From assembly GCF_001650025.1 (NCBI RefSeq), contig NZ_LVVY01000091.1:1-64000 (forward strand): a stretch of DNA of 64,000 bases, written 5' to 3'. Positions 7,100-58,393 of the stretch are shown in pieces; the first letter of the stretch is position 1, and each line of letters opens with the position of its first letter. Below the pieces are notes generated by a model, which had not been told where the DNA came from, searched no databases, and worked only from the letters and a program-made list of their open reading frames with translations. The translations under genes and the position numbers were made by a program. Source of the DNA: Devosia elaeis. Its GTDB lineage: Bacteria; Pseudomonadota; Alphaproteobacteria; Rhizobiales; Devosiaceae.

Positions 7100-7855
7100 T
7101 CACATTCCCACGCCCCGCGGCGAATAGACCAGCGGGTCCATGCCGGGCCGTTCGATGATGCGGGTTTCGGCCGAGCCGATGATGATGCAGGTGGCCATGT
7201 CGGCGGGCTGCTGATGCGCCTCGCCCAGGGGAGCGACGGCGAAATGCTCGTCCGGGCGGCCCACGGCGCGGCCGAAGATCACCGGCGTCGTCACCGGCAG
7301 CACTTCGCGCAGGATCTTGAAGGCATTGGGCAATTGCCAGGGCCGGGCCTTGGAAATGGGATTGTAGAGCGCGATGACCAGGCCCGCTTCGGCCACGGCG
7401 CGCAGACGCCGCTCGATCAGCTCCCACGGCTTGAGGTTGTCGGAAAGCGAAATGGCGCAGAAATCGTGGCCCAGGGGCGCGCCGGCGCGGGCGGCCACGG
7501 CCAGCATGGCGGTGACGCCGGGCAGCACTTTGACATCGAGCCGGCGCCACGTTTCCGGGCCCGTCTCGATGGCTTCGCACACGGCCGCGGCCATGGCGAA
7601 GACTCCCGGATCGCCGCCGGACACCACGCAGACCCGTGCGCCGCGCGTGGCAGCATCGAGCGCGGCCCTGGCGCGGTGGATTTCCTCGCGATTGTCGGAA
7701 GCGATACGGCTCTGGTCGGGGCGCAGATCGAGCCGGTCGAGATAGGGCCCGTAGCCGAAGAACATTTCGCCGGCGGCGATGGCCTCGAGGGCCTGCGGCG
7801 TGGTCTGCCCGGGATTGCCGGGGCCGGTGCCGATGATGGTGAGGCTGCCGGTCAT
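7100..7855 (-). CDS. cobJ: Precorrin-3B C17-methyltransferase
   Basis: A 251-residue SAM-dependent methylase of the CobJ/CbiH group: LTIIGTGPGNPGQTTPQALEA at the start, VVSGGDPGVFAMAAAVCEA, and the late VTTPVIFGRAVGRPDEH. It contracts the macrocycle and methylates C17. The length is the usual one for a CobJ without the extra C-terminal domain found in some anaerobic versions. Its ATG overlaps the end of cobI by 4 nt, which suggests translational coupling. Confidence 0.94.
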   Translation of the reverse strand: MTGSLTIIGTGPGNPGQTTPQALEAIAAGEMFFGYGPYLDRLDLRPDQSRIASDNREEIHRARAALDAATRGARVCVVSGGDPGVFAMAAAVCEAIETGPETWRRLDVKVLPGVTAMLAVAARAGAPLGHDFCAISLSDNLKPWELIERRLRAVAEAGLVIALYNPISKARPWQLPNAFKILREVLPVTTPVIFGRAVGRPDEHFAVAPLGEAHQQPADMATCIIIGSAETRIIERPGMDPLVYSPRGVGM

Positions 7856-8577
7856 GGTCGCGTGCTCCAGCCGGGGACGAGGATCAGCGAGAAATAGGGC
7901 GCAAGGTCATCCGCCTTCTCGCTGAGCGACTGGGAAAAGCCGGCCTCCATGGTGCCGCGCTCAACATAGACGGCGCCGGACAGGCGCCCCGCCTCGGCCA
8001 GCGCGGCGCGCACCTTGGGCAGGTTGCGGCCGAGCTTCATGATGACGGCGCCTTCCGTGCCGCCGAGACGACGAACGAGATCGGCGTGGTCGAGCGTGCC
8101 GGGGAGGATGGTGAGGATATCGTCGCCCTGCACCAGCGGCAGGCCTGCATGCGACCAGGCGCCGGACATCGCGGTGATCCCGGCAATGACCTCCGTGTCG
8201 TAGCGCGGCGCGAGGCGGACATGGAGATGCATATAGCTGCCATAGAGCAGGGGGTCGCCCTCGCTGAGCACGCCGACGATCCGCCCCGCGTCGAGATGGG
8301 CGGCGAGACGCTTGGCCGCCTCGGCATAGAAGGCCTCGATCTGCGCCTTGTAGCCGTTCTCGTGGCGGTGGATTTCGGTGGTGACCGGGTAATCCAGCCG
8401 CTCCTCGATCTGGCCGGGGCGAAAATGGGCGGCGGCGATGGCCCGGGCATTGCTGGCATTGCCGCTCTTGGCGAAAAAGGCGATGACATCGGCGCTTTCG
8501 ATAGCGCGCACCGCCTTGAGCGTGAGCAGTTCCGGATCGCCGGGTCCGGTGCCGATGCCGATGAGCTTGCCGGTCAC
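7852..8577 (-). CDS. cobI: Precorrin-2 C20-methyltransferase
   Basis: A 241-residue methylase with the CobI/CbiL pattern: GKLIGIGTGPGDPELLTLKAV, SEGDPLLYGSYMHLHVRL and IAGITAMSGAWSHAGLPLV. It adds the C20 methyl group to precorrin-2, the step that commits the intermediate to cobalamin rather than siroheme. The start is GTG at 8577, in a GTGA overlap with the end of cobH; it overlaps cobJ by 4 nt at its end. Confidence 0.94.
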   Translation of the reverse strand: MTGKLIGIGTGPGDPELLTLKAVRAIESADVIAFFAKSGNASNARAIAAAHFRPGQIEERLDYPVTTEIHRHENGYKAQIEAFYAEAAKRLAAHLDAGRIVGVLSEGDPLLYGSYMHLHVRLAPRYDTEVIAGITAMSGAWSHAGLPLVQGDDILTILPGTLDHADLVRRLGGTEGAVIMKLGRNLPKVRAALAEAGRLSGAVYVERGTMEAGFSQSLSEKADDLAPYFSLILVPGWSTRP

Positions 8578-9206
8578 AGGCCCGGCCTCGCCAGGGCGTT
8601 GAGGCAGGCCGAGGTGATGGCGCTGCCCCCCAGGCGGCCGCGCACGATGGCAAAGGGCACGCCGTAGGAATTTTCGGCTAGGGCGTCCTTGGATTCAGCC
8701 GCGCCAACGAAGCCCACCGGCATGCCGAGAATGGCCGCCGGTTTCGGCGCGCCGTCGCGCAGCATTTCCAATAGATGGAACAGGGCGGTGGGCGCATTGC
8801 CGATGGCCACGACGGCACCAGCGAGATGCTCGGACCAGAGATCGAGTGCAGCGGCCGAGCGGGTATTGCCGATCGCTGCCGCCAGGGCCGGTGTGCGCGC
8901 ATCGCGCAGGGTGCAGATAACCTTGTTGTCGGCGGGAAGGCGGGCGGCGGTGATGCCGCGCGCGACCATTTCCGCGTCGCAGAGAATGGGCGCGCCGGCC
9001 TCAAGCGCCTTGCGGGCCGCCGAAACGAAACCGGCGCCGAAGACGAAATGCTGGGCGGCCTCGACCATGCCGGCGGCATGGATCATGCGTACGGCAAGCT
9101 CGGCCTCGTCTTCGGCAAAGCCGGACAGATCGGCCTCGCTGCGGATGATGGCGAAAGATTGCCGGTAAATGGCGTCGCCATCCTTGATGTAGTCGTATTG
9201 CGTCAT
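8574..9206 (-). CDS. cobH: Precorrin-8X methylmutase
   Basis: A 210-residue CobH/CbiC. His43 in VRMIHAAGMVEAAQHF aligns with the catalytic histidine described for CobH, and ILCDAEMVARGI and PVGFVGAAESKDAL are family blocks. It moves the methyl group from C11 to C12, giving hydrogenobyrinate. It overlaps cobI by 4 nt and cobG by 4 nt, so cobG-H-I-J form a tightly coupled unit. Confidence 0.95.
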   Translation of the reverse strand: MTQYDYIKDGDAIYRQSFAIIRSEADLSGFAEDEAELAVRMIHAAGMVEAAQHFVFGAGFVSAARKALEAGAPILCDAEMVARGITAARLPADNKVICTLRDARTPALAAAIGNTRSAAALDLWSEHLAGAVVAIGNAPTALFHLLEMLRDGAPKPAAILGMPVGFVGAAESKDALAENSYGVPFAIVRGRLGGSAITSACLNALARPGL

Positions 9207-10450
9207 CGGCCTTCCCGGCAGGCGAGAGCGGGGATCAGCCCGGCCTCGTCAACAATTTCATCAGGCGTATCGCCCGCGCGGCCCTGGAAGACAAGGCCAA
9301 TCCCATCGGCGCGGCCGACAAGCGTGATATCGGCCGGGCGCGGATGGGCGCAGCCCTTGGCGCAGCCGGAAACATGGAGGTGTTTGCCGACCGGAACATG
9401 CGGCGCGAGCGCGGCGCCCAGCCGGCGCGCGGCGACATGGCCGGAGGCGCAGCCTTCATTGCCGACACAGGCGCTGACCCGTCGGCGCGGATCGGTTGGA
9501 TCGGTAATGAAGCCGAGGCCGGTGGCGGCGGCGATGAGGCCGGCGGGGGCGTCGTCGAGAAGCAGGCTGTGGTTGGGCGCTAGGCGGAATGTGGTGAGCT
9601 TGGCGGCAGCGGCCAGATCGGCCAGGGCGATGAGGGCGCTGCCGTGGATTTGGGCGAAGGGCAGGGCTATGGGAGCGGTGCGGCCGTTGAGAATTTCGAG
9701 CGTGTGGCCCCCCCACCCCGTCCTTCCCCGCAAGGGGGAGGGTGTTGGGCCGGCTTTTGGCGCAAAATCGAGGCCCATCCTCGATGCAGCACCTCCCCCC
9801 TTGCGGGGGAGGTTGGGAGGGGGGGATGGCATACGCTGTGCCGGAAACAAATCCGCCGCCCGCGCCTCGACGCCTAGAGCCGCCAGCGCACCGAGCGTTG
9901 CGAGGGTGGCGGAGACCGCGCCATCGGTATCCATCACCTGTGGCTTGCCGCCGCCCAGCGTCACCGCCCAGTGTTTATCGTCGATGGCGAGCAACCGGAT
10001 ATCGGCCTTGAGCGCGGCGAGGGAAACCTGGCCGCCGCTGTCGATTACCACGCTGACCTTGGGGCCGAGCTTGCCCTCCATCGGCGCGGCGGCCTTGCGG
10101 ATCGCTTCGGCAAGCGCACGGGGATCGGCCTTTTCGGTGGGATCGTCGCCGGCGATGGGAGAGAGATCGACCACCAGCCCGGTTTCGATGGGCAAGCCGG
10201 CGCCGGCGGCGCGGGCGAAGAGCGGGGCGCTGGCCGGCGTCAGGCCGCGCACTTGGAGATTGCCACGGGCGGTGATTTCAACGATGCCATTGCCATGGGC
10301 GATGGCGAGCCGCGCGAGATCGGCAAGCTGGGATGGCGCCAGCCGATTGCCGGCAATGCGGAGGCGGGCGAGCAGGCCGTCGCCGGTCCGCATCGGCGCG
10401 TCCAGCGTCGGACAGGCGCCGCGACGATTGGGGGCGGTGATATTTATCAC
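9203..10450 (-). CDS. cobG: Precorrin-3B synthase with an in-frame repeat insertion
   Basis: A 415-residue CobG, an iron-sulfur monooxygenase related to sulfite/nitrite reductases that forms precorrin-3B in the oxygen-dependent pathway. The C-terminal half holds GNEGCASGHVAARRLG and HVSGCAKGCAHPRP, the cysteine-rich cluster-binding region. The start is GTG at 10450. Residues about 203-251 do not fit the family: they are proline/glycine-rich (SPPPNLPRKGGG; TPSPLRGRTGWGG) and are encoded by a paired palindromic repeat that keeps the frame open. Whether the enzyme still works cannot be told from sequence. Confidence 0.88.
   Translation of the reverse strand: MINITAPNRRGACPTLDAPMRTGDGLLARLRIAGNRLAPSQLADLARLAIAHGNGIVEITARGNLQVRGLTPASAPLFARAAGAGLPIETGLVVDLSPIAGDDPTEKADPRALAEAIRKAAAPMEGKLGPKVSVVIDSGGQVSLAALKADIRLLAIDDKHWAVTLGGGKPQVMDTDGAVSATLATLGALAALGVEARAADLFPAQRMPSPPPNLPRKGGGAASRMGLDFAPKAGPTPSPLRGRTGWGGHTLEILNGRTAPIALPFAQIHGSALIALADLAAAAKLTTFRLAPNHSLLLDDAPAGLIAAATGLGFITDPTDPRRRVSACVGNEGCASGHVAARRLGAALAPHVPVGKHLHVSGCAKGCAHPRPADITLVGRADGIGLVFQGRAGDTPDEIVDEAGLIPALACREGR
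9703..9830. repeat. REPIN-like repeat inside the cobG reading frame
   Basis: Arms about CTTCCCCGCAAGGGGGAGGG (9723-9742) and CCTCCCCCCTTGCGGGGGAGG (9791-9811) face each other, and each is flanked by a CCCCACCC or GGGAGGGGGGG tail. The same architecture occurs in intergenic DNA at 15335, 17685, 18793, 35970 and 53190. Here it lies inside cobG without stop codons in that frame. Confidence 0.8.
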
Positions 10451-10453
10451 GGG

Positions 10454-10520
10454 GTCATCCCCGCGAAAGCGGGGACCTCCGTTGCAGCAAACAGGGGTTC
10501 CCGCTTTCGCGGGAATGACA
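10454..10520. repeat. Palindromic repeat pair between cobF and cobG
   Basis: GTCATCCCCGCGAAAGCGGG (from 10455) and its complement TCCCGCTTTCGCGGGAATGAC (10499-10519) form a long hairpin with a 22-nt centre. Each arm also contains its own small palindrome (CCCGCGAAAGCGGG). This type of repeat is common between genes in many proteobacteria. It may cut transcription between cobF and cobG. The rest of 10451-10585 shows no gene and no recognisable cobalamin riboswitch. Confidence 0.7.
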
Positions 10521-10585
10521 TTGTGACTGTCTGAAAGAGTCCAAACGCTGCATGGGATTATCTTACCAGCCCGCCGCCCGGCGCA

Positions 10586-17684: not shown

Positions 17685-17815
17685 GCTGCGCCCTCCCTCC
17701 CCCTTGAGGGGAGGGTAGCGAAGCTTGGCCGAAGGCTTAGCGGAGCTGGGGTGGGGGTAGTGCGGTGATGCATTGATGGACCCCCACCCTCGATCCCTCC
17801 CCTCAAGGGGGAGGG
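17685..17815. repeat. Paired palindromic repeat inside the ABC operon
   Basis: CCCTCCCCCTTGAGGGGAGG (about 17695-17716) and TCCCTCCCCTCAAGGGGGAG (about 17796-17815) face each other, with GGGGTGGGGG / CCCCCACCC inner tails (17749-17793). At about 130 bp it is one of the best-preserved members of the CTTGAGGGG class. It lies between the permease and ATPase genes and could change their relative expression. Confidence 0.8.
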
Positions 17816-18792: not shown

Positions 18793-18922
18793 GCACCCTC
18801 CCCCTTGAGGGGAGGGATGGGGTGGGGGTGCAGGCCTGTCAGCGGGGGGAACGGCTGCGATGGCGCAAGTGGCTGCCGCAGAACCCCCACCCCGGCCCTC
18901 CCCTCAAGGGGGAGGGGGCGGT
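18793..18922. repeat. Paired palindromic repeat inside the ABC operon
   Basis: Outer arms CCTCCCCCTTGAGGGGAGGG (about 18798-18817) and CCTCCCCTCAAGGGGGAGGG (about 18898-18917) with GGGGTGGGGGT and ACCCCCACCCC inner tails. It has the same architecture and length class as 17685-17815 and 35970-36100. It separates the DppB-like from the DppC-like permease gene. Confidence 0.8.
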
Positions 18923-54336: not shown

Positions 54337-54665
54337 TTGTCGACCAGGGCTACGAAAAGCACGCCTTCAAGATGCGGCTCAATCCCGGCATGGCGGCGGA
54401 ATACAAAAAACGCCATGACGAAATCTTCCCCGAACTGGTGGACCTGCTGCACGAGGCCGGGGTGAAGGATTATTCCATCCACCTGGATGAGGAGACCAAT
54501 ACGCTGTTCGGCGTGCTCTGGCGGCGGGTGGACCACACGATGGCCGACCTGCCCAGGACAGAGGTGATGCAGCGCTGGTGGGCGCATATGGCCGATATCA
54601 TGGCGACCAATGCGCAGAACGAGCCGGTCTCGATGGACTTGACGCCGATGTTCTGGATGAAGTGA
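54333..54665 (+). CDS. rhaM: L-rhamnose mutarotase
   Basis: A 110-residue protein of the RhaM family (called RhaU in rhizobia): [35 protein letters not shown] with His28 at the position of the catalytic histidine, and [16 protein letters not shown] near the end. It interconverts the anomers of L-rhamnose. It is the last recognisable rha gene; in the rhizobial order the kinase rhaK would follow, but the next gene is the convergent cysG. Confidence 0.94.
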
Positions 54666-55806
54666 GCGGCTGCCGGCGCGGCCATGTCCTGTCGCTGCGC
54701 TGACGGGCGGCGGGAAGGCCGGGGACCATATTGACGGCAATGCCCGCATCTTCGAGCCTGGTGATCATCTCGCCGCCGGTGTCGGATAGCGCGTCGCCGG
54801 TCCTGAGGCGAACGACATGCTTGCCCTGGCGGGCGAGCGCAACCATCTGCGCGACAGCATCGTCGGCGACCGGCAGGCGCCGGGCCTCGCGCCGGGCAAG
54901 CTCGAGAATTGCGGCCGGAACGCGCGCGTCGAAGAGGATGATATCGGCCGATTGCAGGGCCCGAACGGCCTTGACGGTGAGGAGGTCCGGCGCGCCCGGG
55001 CCGGCGCCGACCAGGCTGATGCGGCCCAAGGGCATTGCGGTAACGGGAGAGATTTCCTCGTCGGCGCGGACGGGCGGGGCCTCGCCGAACGCCTTGTCGG
55101 CCAGGCGCTCCCAGAAGACGCGGCGCTGGGGGCCCGGCGCGAGATTTTCCATCACCCTGTCGCGCAGCCGGGCGGCCAGTTGCGCCCAGAGCGCCAGCGA
55201 TCGCGGCAGCAGCGTCTCGATGCGCCGGCGCACGGCCTGGCCGAGAATGGGCGCGGCCCCGGCGGTGGAAATGCCGACGACGAGCGGCGAGCGATTGACG
55301 ATGGCGCCGAACTGGAACTGGCAGAATTCGGGCTGGTCGATGACGTTATAGGGCACGGACGCGGCCCTGGCGGCGGCGATGAAGGCACGGGCTTCGGCGT
55401 CGGATTCGAGGTCGGCTATGGCGAGGGCGGTGTTGGATAGATCTTCCGCACTCCAAGGCCGCAAATGCAGTGTGATGCCAGGCTCCCCTCCCCCTTGAGG
55501 GGAGGGGTTGGGGGTGGAGGTTCTGCGGCTGCCCAGGAATTCGATGTGTGTGGGAGCGCCTGCACCCCCACCCTCGTTCCCTCCCCTCAAGGGGGAGGGA
55601 GGCGCAAGAGCCGCCAGCTCCGCGCAAATCTCCTCCGCGTAAACATCGACATGTGCGCCCGCGGCGGCCAGCAATTCAGTCTTCCATGCCGCCGCTTCCG
55701 AGCCGCCGATGACGACGACGCGCTTGCCGCGCAGGTCGAAGAAGACCGGCAGCACCGCGAGCGGGGCGATCCTTGGGCTATTCGGCTGCGGCGAGACGGT
55801 TCGCAT
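54598..55806 (-). CDS. cysG: Siroheme synthase with degenerate methyltransferase half and repeat insertion
   Basis: A 402-residue CysG-like protein. The N-terminal half (about 1-205) is the NAD-dependent precorrin-2 dehydrogenase/ferrochelatase ([70 protein letters not shown]). Residues about 68-107 are an in-frame palindromic repeat ([13 protein letters not shown] ... PNPSPQGGG). The C-terminal half begins like uroporphyrinogen-III methyltransferase ([20 protein letters not shown]), but the GGDPxxFGRGGEE block is [12 protein letters not shown] and homology ends after VPGLPAA near residue 367; the rest overlaps rhaM. Probably no methyltransferase activity. Start ATG at 55806, overlapping nasA by 29 nt. 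Confidence 0.8.
55488..55605. repeat. REPIN-like repeat inside the cysG reading frame
   Basis: CTCCCCCTTGAGGGGAGGGG (from 55488) and CCCTCCCCTCAAGGGGGAGG (from 55581) face each other, with TTGGGGGTGGAGG / CCCCCACCCTC inner tails. It is the same class as the intergenic elements at 17685, 18793, 35970 and 53190, but here it lies within the dehydrogenase half of cysG without a stop in that frame. Confidence 0.85.
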
Positions 55807-58393
55807 CGAGAATGCTCCTGATTTCGGCGCGGCAGGAGCCGCAATTGGTGCCGGCGCGAGTGACGGCGCCGACGGCCTCGACGCTGGAACAGCCCTGGCG
55901 GGCGACCGCATCGGCGATGGTATTGATGCCCACCGAAAAGCACGAACAGACCACGGCGCCGCCATCGGGCCGGTCGCTGCCGGGGCGGCCGGCAAGAACG
56001 ATGGAGGCGCTGAGGCCGGTTTCGGCGAGGAGGCCGGCGGCCCATTGGCGGGAGACGAGGACCGGATCAGGCGATGTGTAGAGCGCGGCGACGAGGCGGC
56101 CATTTTCGATGAGCGCGAAGGCGCGGCGGCCATTGCGGTCGTCGCGGATGGACTGAAATTGCGACTCCGTGCCGAAGGTCACGGCGAGAAACGCAGGCCA
56201 ATCCGCCGGTTCGGCGGTGAAACCCAACTCGCCACGCCAGCCGCCCAGCGCCGGGGCGATGGCCCAGTATTCACTGGAGAGGCGCGGGTTTTCGGCGGCG
56301 ACGAAATAGCCGTGAAGCCGCATGGCGGCGGGCTCGGCATGGACCTGCGCCATTTTCAGCGCCGGCTGGCCGGAAACCGGATCGGTCTTGCCGGGGACGA
56401 GCGCGTCGATGCGGCCATTACTGGCGAATTGGTCCGTCCAATGCATGGGGGCGAACAATTGGCCGCGCTGCTGGCGATCGGTGACGAGGGCGCGGACCAG
56501 GGCAGTGCCATGCCGGCTCGACAGCCGCACCAGGCTGGCGCGGCGGATGCCGAGCCGGGCGGCGTCGTCGGGATGGATTTCGACGAAGGGCTCGGCCATG
56601 TGCGCGGAGAGGCGCGCGGCCTTGCCGGTGCGGGTCATGGTGTGCCAGTGATCGCGCACCCGGCCGGTATTGAGGATGAAACCGCCCGGCGCGGGGGCGA
56701 AGGGCGGCGGGGGCTGGATGGCGACGAAGCGCGCCTTGCGGTCCGGCGTGAAGAAACGGCCATCGCCGAACATGCGGGCGGCAGGCCTGGTGCGGATAGG
56801 CCATTGTACAGGGGCGAGGGTGTCGTAATCGGCATCGATCAGCCCGGAGAGATCGAAATCCCGGCTGCCGTCATTGTCGAAAGCCGAGAGCGCGACGTGT
56901 TCGGCGAAAATCTCTGACGGCGTTTCATAGTCGAAGGCCTTGGCATGCCCCATGCGGCGCGCGACTTCCTTGATGATCCACCAATCGGGGCGGGCCTCGC
57001 CGGGGAGCGGCAGGAAGGGGCGTTGGCGCGAGATGCGGCGTTCCGAATTGGTGACGGTGCCGTCCTTTTCGCCCCAGCCGGCGGCGGGCAGGCGGATATG
57101 GGCGAGGTCCATCGTATCGGTATGCCGGTTCATGTCGGACACCACCACCAAGGGGCAGGCGGCCAGAGCGGCGCGCACGGCATCGGCGTCGGGCATGGAA
57201 TCGACCGGATTGGTGGCCATGATCCAGACGGCCTTGATTTCGCCGCGCGCCATGGCGGCGAAGAGATCGACGGCCTTGAGGCCGGGCTTTCGCGCGATAT
57301 TGGGTGCATCCCAGAAGCGGGAGACGCGGTCGATGGCCTCGGGGGTGAAATCCATATGGGCGGCCAGCATGTTGGCGAGCCCACCGACCTCGCGCCCGCC
57401 CATGGCATTGGGCTGGCCGGTGACGGAAAAGGGGCCCATGCCCGGCCGGCCGATCCGGCCACTGGCCAGATGGCAATTGATGATGGCATTGACCTTGTCG
57501 CTGCCGGCGGCCGATTGATTAACGCCTTGGGAATAGACAGTGACGACCTTTTCGGTGCGGGCAAAGAGATCGTAGAAGTGCGAAATGGCAAGGGGAGCGA
57601 GACCGGTCGCCGCGGCCACGCGGGCGATGTCCCAGTCTTCGGCGGCGAGTAGAGCAGCGTCGAATCCGCTGGTATGGGCGGCGATATAGGCGGGGTCGGT
57701 AGCGCCAGTCTGCGCGAGATGGGCGAGGAGGCCGACAAACAGCGCGCTGTCGCCATCGGGGCCGATGGGCAGATGCAGATCGGCAATCTCGTTGGTCACG
57801 GTGCGGCGCGGATCGATGAGGACGATCTTCATCTCCGGGCGCTGGGCGCGGGCGGCGGCGATGCGCTGGTAAAGCACCGGATGGCACCAGCCCAGGTTCG
57901 AGCCGACCAGCACGATGAGATCGGCCTGTTCGAGATCCTCGTAATTGCCCGGAACCGTGTCGGAGCCGAAGGCGCGTTTGTGACCGGCGACCGACGAGGC
58001 CATGCAAAGGCGGGAATTGGTGTCGATATTGGCGGTGCCGACAAAGCCCTTCATCAGCTTGTTGGCGAGGTAATAATCCTCGGTGAGGAGCTGGCCGGAG
58101 CCATAGATGGCGACGGCATCGGGGCCGTGTTCGGCGATGATCCGGGTGAAGCGGCCGGCGATGTGGCCGAGCGCTTCGTCCCAGGTGACTCGTTTGTCGG
58201 CGATTTCGGGGTGCAGCAGGCGGCCATCGAGCGAAAGGGTTTCGCCCAAAGCCGAGCCCTTGGAGCAGAGGCGGCCGAAATTGGCGGGATGATCGGGATC
58301 GCCGGCTATGGTGACGCTGCCATCGGGCTGCGGGGTGGCAAGGACACCACAGCCAACACCGCAATAGGGGCAGGTGGTGCGGGTGGTTTTCAT
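55778..58393 (-). CDS. nasA: Assimilatory nitrate reductase catalytic subunit
   Basis: An 871-residue molybdopterin oxidoreductase. An N-terminal [4Fe-4S] site (Cys8, Cys11, Cys15, Cys43) precedes the Mo-bis-MGD domains (NIDTNSRLCMASSVAGHKRAFG contains the likely Mo-ligand cysteine; NCHLASGRIGRPGMGPFSVTGQPNAMGGREVGG). The C-terminal 60 residues form a BFD-like [2Fe-2S] domain (CSCFSVG ... GTNCGSC). There is no Tat signal, so it acts in the cytoplasm, reducing nitrate to nitrite. It lies between nirD and cysG in the nitrate operon. Confidence 0.95.
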   Translation of the reverse strand: MKTTRTTCPYCGVGCGVLATPQPDGSVTIAGDPDHPANFGRLCSKGSALGETLSLDGRLLHPEIADKRVTWDEALGHIAGRFTRIIAEHGPDAVAIYGSGQLLTEDYYLANKLMKGFVGTANIDTNSRLCMASSVAGHKRAFGSDTVPGNYEDLEQADLIVLVGSNLGWCHPVLYQRIAAARAQRPEMKIVLIDPRRTVTNEIADLHLPIGPDGDSALFVGLLAHLAQTGATDPAYIAAHTSGFDAALLAAEDWDIARVAAATGLAPLAISHFYDLFARTEKVVTVYSQGVNQSAAGSDKVNAIINCHLASGRIGRPGMGPFSVTGQPNAMGGREVGGLANMLAAHMDFTPEAIDRVSRFWDAPNIARKPGLKAVDLFAAMARGEIKAVWIMATNPVDSMPDADAVRAALAACPLVVVSDMNRHTDTMDLAHIRLPAAGWGEKDGTVTNSERRISRQRPFLPLPGEARPDWWIIKEVARRMGHAKAFDYETPSEIFAEHVALSAFDNDGSRDFDLSGLIDADYDTLAPVQWPIRTRPAARMFGDGRFFTPDRKARFVAIQPPPPFAPAPGGFILNTGRVRDHWHTMTRTGKAARLSAHMAEPFVEIHPDDAARLGIRRASLVRLSSRHGTALVRALVTDRQQRGQLFAPMHWTDQFASNGRIDALVPGKTDPVSGQPALKMAQVHAEPAAMRLHGYFVAAENPRLSSEYWAIAPALGGWRGELGFTAEPADWPAFLAVTFGTESQFQSIRDDRNGRRAFALIENGRLVAALYTSPDPVLVSRQWAAGLLAETGLSASIVLAGRPGSDRPDGGAVVCSCFSVGINTIADAVARQGCSSVEAVGAVTRAGTNCGSCRAEIRSILDANRLAAAE

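Follow-up and report, generated by a model that had tools for sequence, protein, structure and literature searches.

A palindromic repeat in frame within the CobG linker of Devosia elaeis, and the occupation of the same site by different repeat families in Hyphomicrobiales

Palindromic repeats in bacterial reading frames

Palindromes that lie in frame within genes are a known kind of element. The palindromic elements of Rickettsia (RPEs; Ogata 2000, 2002), in the parts of PMC2229807 and PMC10969869 available to us, are described as palindromes of about 105-150 bp that are found between genes and also in frame within conserved proteins, where they are likely tolerated. They reside in many unrelated genes, and ORFs contain nearly half of all copies (PMC10969869, in part). 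Intragenic REPs of the GTAG/CGTC type are present in ORFs of many bacteria, and it has been suggested that they are located in flexible linkers or loops (Di Nocera 2013, PMC3733652, in part). The same source includes one case of a shared site, recB in two Xanthomonas species, as well as a REP-tagged uvrB in R. conorii, and its main text does not mention cobalamin, Devosia or Mesorhizobium. Fusions of ORFs with bacterial MITEs, e.g., ERIC/RU-1 and Correia, have also been reported (Delihas 2007, PMC2229807, in part).

The repeat described here lies in cobG of Devosia elaeis, within a window of 64,000 nucleotides that belongs to contig C91 of a draft genome of 3.88 Mb in 151 contigs. This genome is labeled G000, and further G-numbers and L-numbers denote other genomes and loci, respectively. 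The element has the size of an RPE, with a core of 113 bp and about 146 bp including its flanks, while some other copies are longer and extend to an outer repeat. Like an RPE, it is in frame in the gene of a conserved protein and is matched by a gap in the relatives. In contrast to RPEs, copies within genes are rare here, and they return to the same two sites. RPE hosts belong to another bacterial order, and the likeness is drawn from the published description of RPEs. With the GTAG/CGTC REPs the element has in common that it is a short palindrome in an ORF, and uvrB is reported to be hit in R. conorii, while our own analysis found a repeat arm in uvrB of Mesorhizobium ciceri. However, the cobG element is longer than these REPs, its genome is devoid of Y1_Tnp matches, and the reuse of the site spans an order and several families. 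Its arms of 39 nt with a spacing of 39 nt differ from the stem of 8-9 bp and the loop of 4-5 bp of CGTC REPs, and by eye neither a CGTC end nor, in a flank alignment in which the copy ends are approximate, a GTAG end was seen. Bacterial MITEs, as far as the consulted part of the source goes, are likewise non-autonomous, have inverted repeats and form in-frame fusions; terminal inverted repeats are found in the family of the cobG repeat, but not at the cobG copy itself, and neither a target duplication nor a parent transposon has been identified for it. In the openly licensed literature we found no report of several repeat families reusing a single site throughout an order.

The cobG repeat and its family in the genome

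The gene cobG (9203..10450, minus strand) encodes a precorrin-3B synthase of 415 aa, which scores 255.9 bits against TIGR02435 (cut-off 234.8) and matches PF03460 above and PF01077 below the cut-off. It is followed on the same strand by the genes for precorrin-8X methylmutase (cobH, 8574..9206), precorrin-2 C20-methyltransferase (cobI, 7852..8577) and precorrin-3B C17-methyltransferase (cobJ, 7100..7855). The start of cobH overlaps the stop of cobG by 4 bp, and overlaps of 4 bp also join cobI to cobH and cobJ to cobI, which suggests translational coupling throughout 7100-10450. A second inverted repeat with arms of 37 nt (81% complementary) is located at 10447-10526 and covers the GTG start codon, so that cobG has two palindromes. 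Elsewhere in the genome a CobZ-like protein is encoded (G000:C119:21873-23348, minus strand), which is possibly redundant to CobG and reaches 235.3 bits, below the family cut-off of 372.55; in genome G044 a CobZ above the cut-off is present alongside CobG.

The in-frame repeat extends from about 9693 to 9838. These ends are approximate and were placed by eye, on the basis of a short end, TCGAGCGTGTG or a near form of it, which the cobG copy shares with only a few others (L041, twice, L043, and a second copy beside L049). An nhmmer profile matched the core at 9711..9823 on both strands, because the sequence is palindromic, and repeat-pair detection (pair I25, plus-strand coordinates) located the arms at 9709..9747 and 9787..9825, which are 79% complementary over 39 nt and separated by 39 nt. 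As DNA the hairpin has a z of -5.3, as coding-strand RNA it has -87.1 kcal/mol and a z of -4.9, and in both cases none of 200 shuffled sequences was equally stable. From 10450 to 9203 the reading frame of cobG passes through the repeat without a stop codon. The first-pass annotation had proposed such a palindrome in the cobG frame at 9703..9830, adding about 45-50 residues at 203-251. The palindrome was confirmed, and the element-derived part comprises 48-49 codons, about 203-251. Across 19 copies of the repeat 73% of the six frames are free of stops, and therefore the open frame by itself says little and was rejected as strong evidence.

With 177 nt the linker is longer than the 81-120 nt of 32 element-free Devosia genomes, which results in a net gain of 19-32 codons and implies that about 17-30 ordinary linker codons are missing. 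By this comparison of lengths, the repeat is not a clean insertion, since part of the usual linker is gone.

A BLAST search of the genome with 9690-9840 yielded 64 matches, with scores for 40 of the 158 candidates from the first look. The number of distinct places is smaller, since a palindrome is matched in both orientations and hits to one arm were also counted. The long matches are located on other contigs and have 74-83% identity over 98-131 bp. An iterated profile built from 20 fetched stretches and the window gave 60 hits, 31 of them non-overlapping and 24 with a length of 85 bp or more; the last of these 24 (window 36060) belongs by eye to a different family. A two-armed shape in common with the window repeats at 17685, 18793, 35970 and 53190 had been noted at first; an arm of the cobG copy indeed pairs with the repeat at 18793 (89% complementary) and was also grouped, at 64%, with copies at 18862 and 36037, but its nearer kin are on the other contigs.

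Many copies of the family are bordered by an outer inverted repeat, GGGCTATCGCATATGG, and some extend to it, while it is missing from the cobG copy. It was found at 16 places with at most two mismatches, compared to none for the backward control. Inward-facing pairs are 79-194 bp apart, and none of them encloses a gene-sized stretch in this genome of 151 contigs. Y1_Tnp (PF01797) had no match at E 0.001 in the draft genome, whereas the control was positive in 5 of 14 genomes, and for this genome a REP/RAYT system driven by Y1_Tnp was rejected. The analysis of the genome and the copies revealed no transposase, target duplication or exact ends, and no close empty site was found at the DNA level among the Devosia linkers compared, which are too divergent. 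We consider it probable that the cobG repeat is a non-autonomous palindromic element of a family that is dispersed in the genome and in the genus, and it would have been moved by an enzyme acting in trans.

In an AlphaFold model of the window CobG, based on 42 sequences, both halves of the protein are confident (pLDDT 88.9 overall), and residues 217-244, between a helix (198-201) and a strand (251-253), are below 50. The model thus places the insert in the linker that joins the two halves, and its low confidence is taken as disorder. In structure, the model comes closest to NirA and to assimilatory nitrite and sulfite reductases. In comparison to five relatives both halves have a dN/dS of 0.19-0.47 (dN 0.19-0.32, dS 0.43-1.55). 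The invariant columns include C328, C334, C363, and C367, presumably the Fe-S ligands, and all four are kept in the window protein. Because both halves are conserved, have a dN/dS below 0.5 and are confidently folded, the insert-bearing CobG probably works.

Repeats in the CobG linker of Devosia and other Hyphomicrobiales

In alignments of 15 and then 30 Devosia CobG sequences the flanks of the insert align, and at its position all sequences but those of the window and of G020 have a gap or a short variable stretch. The linkers were read in 36 of 75 Devosia genomes, one of which (G053) has a divergent CobG-like protein, and four contain an insert, i.e., the window, G020, G064, and G061. Of the clean gap expected in relatives, the absence of the element was found, but not the clean insertion. 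None of the Devosia linkers that were read has, at equal length, a conserved stretch unrelated to the repeat, which would have spoken against an insertion. The likeness to an RPE-type insert tolerated in a flexible segment, also raised at first sight, is supported by the insert-free relatives, the copies elsewhere in the genome and the AlphaFold model.

G064 and G061 are sisters with similar inserts. Within the insert of G020 (L016:2089-2355, plus strand), the element together with flanking codons seems by eye to be partly duplicated in tandem. As a query this insert had 46 matches in its own genome, 21 in G064 and 2 in the genome of M. composti (L135). In a quick tree of 44 Devosia CobG sequences, including G061, the window groups with G020 at 88 and G064 with G061 at 100*, and two changes suffice. 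One ancestral insertion and several insertions within Devosia CobG would both be compatible with the trees.

The cobG gene of G061 has stop codons inside the insert and a frameshift upstream of it, which may represent decay or an assembly error. This raises the question whether the insert damages cobG and impairs the aerobic B12 pathway also in the strain of the window, as the first-pass annotation had offered as one of two outcomes, and the CobZ-like protein of G000, in spite of its score below the cut-off, might relieve selection on cobG. However, the window cobG is open, passes TIGR02435, has kept its invariant cysteines and low dN/dS in both halves, and retains the 4-bp overlaps of cobGHIJ. 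Judged from these sequence features, an impairment in this genome is very unlikely, and it may rather apply to G061.

Outside of Devosia, the relatives were sampled with an alignment query, after a single-CobG query had given none, and the following counts refer to the best 80 of at least 577 relatives found, among which broken cobG copies may be under-represented. Most Mesorhizobium species and some neighbors in this sample have a different palindrome in the CobG linker, which is translated as ...SVLPDISP...ISPLVGEMSGRTEGG... At four loci (L072, L078, L088, and L095) only the outer arms are present and the middle is missing, and the frame is still kept. Two loci of the Rhizobium type contain a third kind of insert, in full length at L123, where it includes CGTC, and as a remnant at L102. 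A fourth kind was found in M. composti (L135), the arms of which resemble the Devosia type. Two of these kinds have many matches, namely, 92 for the M. ciceri insert in its own genome, and 33 for the L123 insert in its own genome and 23 in that of L102. Across Devosia, Mesorhizobium, and other Hyphomicrobiales, one and the same CobG linker hosts at least three clearly distinct kinds of palindromic repeat.

We classed 95 CobG rows without G061 (L079 has unread bases) by a text criterion applied to the linker peptide, which resulted in 3 rows of class A, 40 of B, 2 of C, 1 of D, and 49 with none. When G061 is added, 46 of the 47 insert-bearing rows are in frame and free of stops, the exception being G061. 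The 95-row tree requires 11 changes if all five states are distinguished and 10 for insert versus none, and at least 5 of these 10 are forced by the starred branches; this is a quick tree without a mixture model, in which long branches are flagged and the placement of the window, G020, and G013 is unsettled. We also folded 129 linker rows (duplicates included, L079 excluded), and all with a z of -3.3 or lower carry an insert or a remnant. For the linker of the window, two rounds with 40 shuffles each gave z values of -3.6 and -2.6. Three element-free linkers fold at about -2, and a few linkers fold weakly in spite of an insert or remnant (L135, -0.7; G061, -1.0; L090, -1.5; L121, -1.7).

The hairpin might have a role of its own, in that it slows ribosomes or RNA polymerase in cobG and thereby tunes the coupled downstream genes cobH-cobI-cobJ. 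The very stable RNA fold, the 4-bp overlaps of the genes and the additional inverted repeat over the cobG start agree with such a function. However, the element is absent from 32 of the 36 Devosia linkers read, its sequence varies between the families, and remnants with a deleted middle persist in Mesorhizobium, and we assign this explanation a very small probability. Four linkers of at least 135 nt (L107, L117, L133, and L134) are without a recognized repeat, which indicates that the linker also lengthens by other routes. Together with the missing 17-30 ordinary codons and the variable, partly Pro-rich linkers of element-free relatives, this could be taken to mean that no insertion took place and that a Pro/Gly-rich linker drifted to low complexity. 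The identity of 74-83% at the DNA level over 98-131 bp to many places of the genome and the palindromic symmetry argue against it, and drift, which has a practically negligible probability, was rejected: the stretch in cobG is a dispersed palindromic repeat.

The CysG turn and the tolerance of in-gene copies

The window contains a second gene with an in-frame palindrome, which the first-pass annotation had missed. A cysG-like ORF (54601..56178, minus strand, stop to stop) was recognized by the N-terminal domains of siroheme synthase, and a repeat of another family, identified by repeat pairs and by comparison of CysG sequences, lies at 55479..55603, where it falls into a turn of the NAD-binding domain. 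For this domain, the Pfam match comprises 148 residues, compared to 104 positions of the model, and further copies of the family are present in the window. The C-terminal methylase domain of this CysG (54601-55000, minus strand) is incomplete and matches positions 2-120 of a profile of 212 positions. Among 31 CysG rows, one from the window and 30 from the best loci of 75 genomes searched, nine have an insert in the turn, and the other 22 have 18-36 nt there. By eye, the nine inserts represent four families, two of which were shown to be dispersed, with 48-56 and 40-85 matches of the queries per genome. In two of the CysG inserts, L236 (G004) and L240 (G063), the first arm of the repeat seems by eye to enclose a further small palindrome-like stretch.

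Copies within genes are rare. Copies were located by their likeness to the cobG copy, and an open frame of at least 30-33 codons beyond both ends was demanded, with a Pfam scan of the longer ORFs. In the genome of the window cobG is the sole recognized gene with a copy inside, among 24 copies and 17 further places (1/41); in this count, the best through-ORFs of 110-197 aa and some second-best frames lie outside the Pfam scan. In M. ciceri, with 28 and 12 places, three genes carry a repeat and a fourth is disrupted. Besides cobG, these are the gene of the E2 acyltransferase (L285:1645-3075, plus strand), with a repeat in frame between the lipoyl and the E3-binding domains, uvrB (L288:1904-4201, minus strand), with a one-arm fragment in the region for the C-terminal tail, and the gene of an ABC transporter ATPase (L176), which is broken out of frame. 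The analysis also covered 20 further Devosia places, selected because their open frames are long, and a single one is inside a recognized domain, namely, in the CysG of G001. Other long through-ORFs (L047, which is MutY-like, L210, L212, L213, L270, and L278) were discarded, either for lack of a Pfam match or because the repeat precedes the domain.

The explanation that we favor, and hold to be probable, is a passive tolerance at rare permissive sites. A palindromic copy would have entered cobG at the linker between the two nitrite/sulfite-reductase-like halves, and as its frame is free of stops, it would be translated into about 48 disordered residues rich in Pro and Gly. Selection would clear most insertions into genes and spare those that are in frame in flexible segments, such as the CobG linker, the CysG turn, the E2 linker and the UvrB tail. 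The same sites would be hit and refilled by different families because permissive sites are few and the genomes are rich in palindromes. The repeat itself, its frame, the gap in relatives, the low model confidence and the recurrence with different families are direct observations, whereas we infer that the enzyme works, that tolerance rather than targeting underlies the recurrence, and that the mover acts in trans. Two findings do not fit easily: in-gene copies are rare (1/41 in the genome of the window, and cobG, E2, UvrB and a broken ABC ATPase gene among 40 places in M. ciceri), and pure tolerance would predict more varied genes than the same two tetrapyrrole enzymes.

An alternative explanation treats the CobG linker and the CysG turn as hot spots, which are preferentially targeted or in which palindromes are swapped by recombination between their arms, resulting in a turnover of cassettes. 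In the sisters G001 and G045 (97* in a quick tree), the same turn of CysG is occupied by repeats that differ in family, and the CysG tree requires 8 changes for five states compared to only 3 for insert versus none. The families are not clustered on this tree (shuffled mean 8.8; 42 of 200 shuffles were as low). The possible nesting in L236 and L240 and the tandem partial copy in G020 would also agree with exchange in place. However, the trees are unsettled in part and contain flagged long branches, they do not separate gain from loss, and no common target sequence was noticed in passing. A direct replacement was not seen, because there is one genome per species. We regard targeting or cassette turnover as rather unlikely, and it is unlikely that the two sites are hot-spot cassette slots for mobile hairpins, possibly kept for the tuning of the tetrapyrrole pathway.

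The recurrence has consequences for annotation, namely, that long Pro/Gly-rich stretches in some CobG proteins of Devosia and Mesorhizobium and in some CysG proteins of Devosia are translated repeats and not domains. In-frame palindromic repeats are usually told as scattered accidents, but here one position per enzyme is reoccupied by different families, for CysG across a genus and for CobG across an order, with remnants that are still in frame. This constitutes a natural experiment on the tolerance of proteins to insertions, on the spread of short mobile hairpins without a known transposase, and on exchange in place. The recurrence suggests that there are a few protein loops in which mobile DNA can land safely and more than once.
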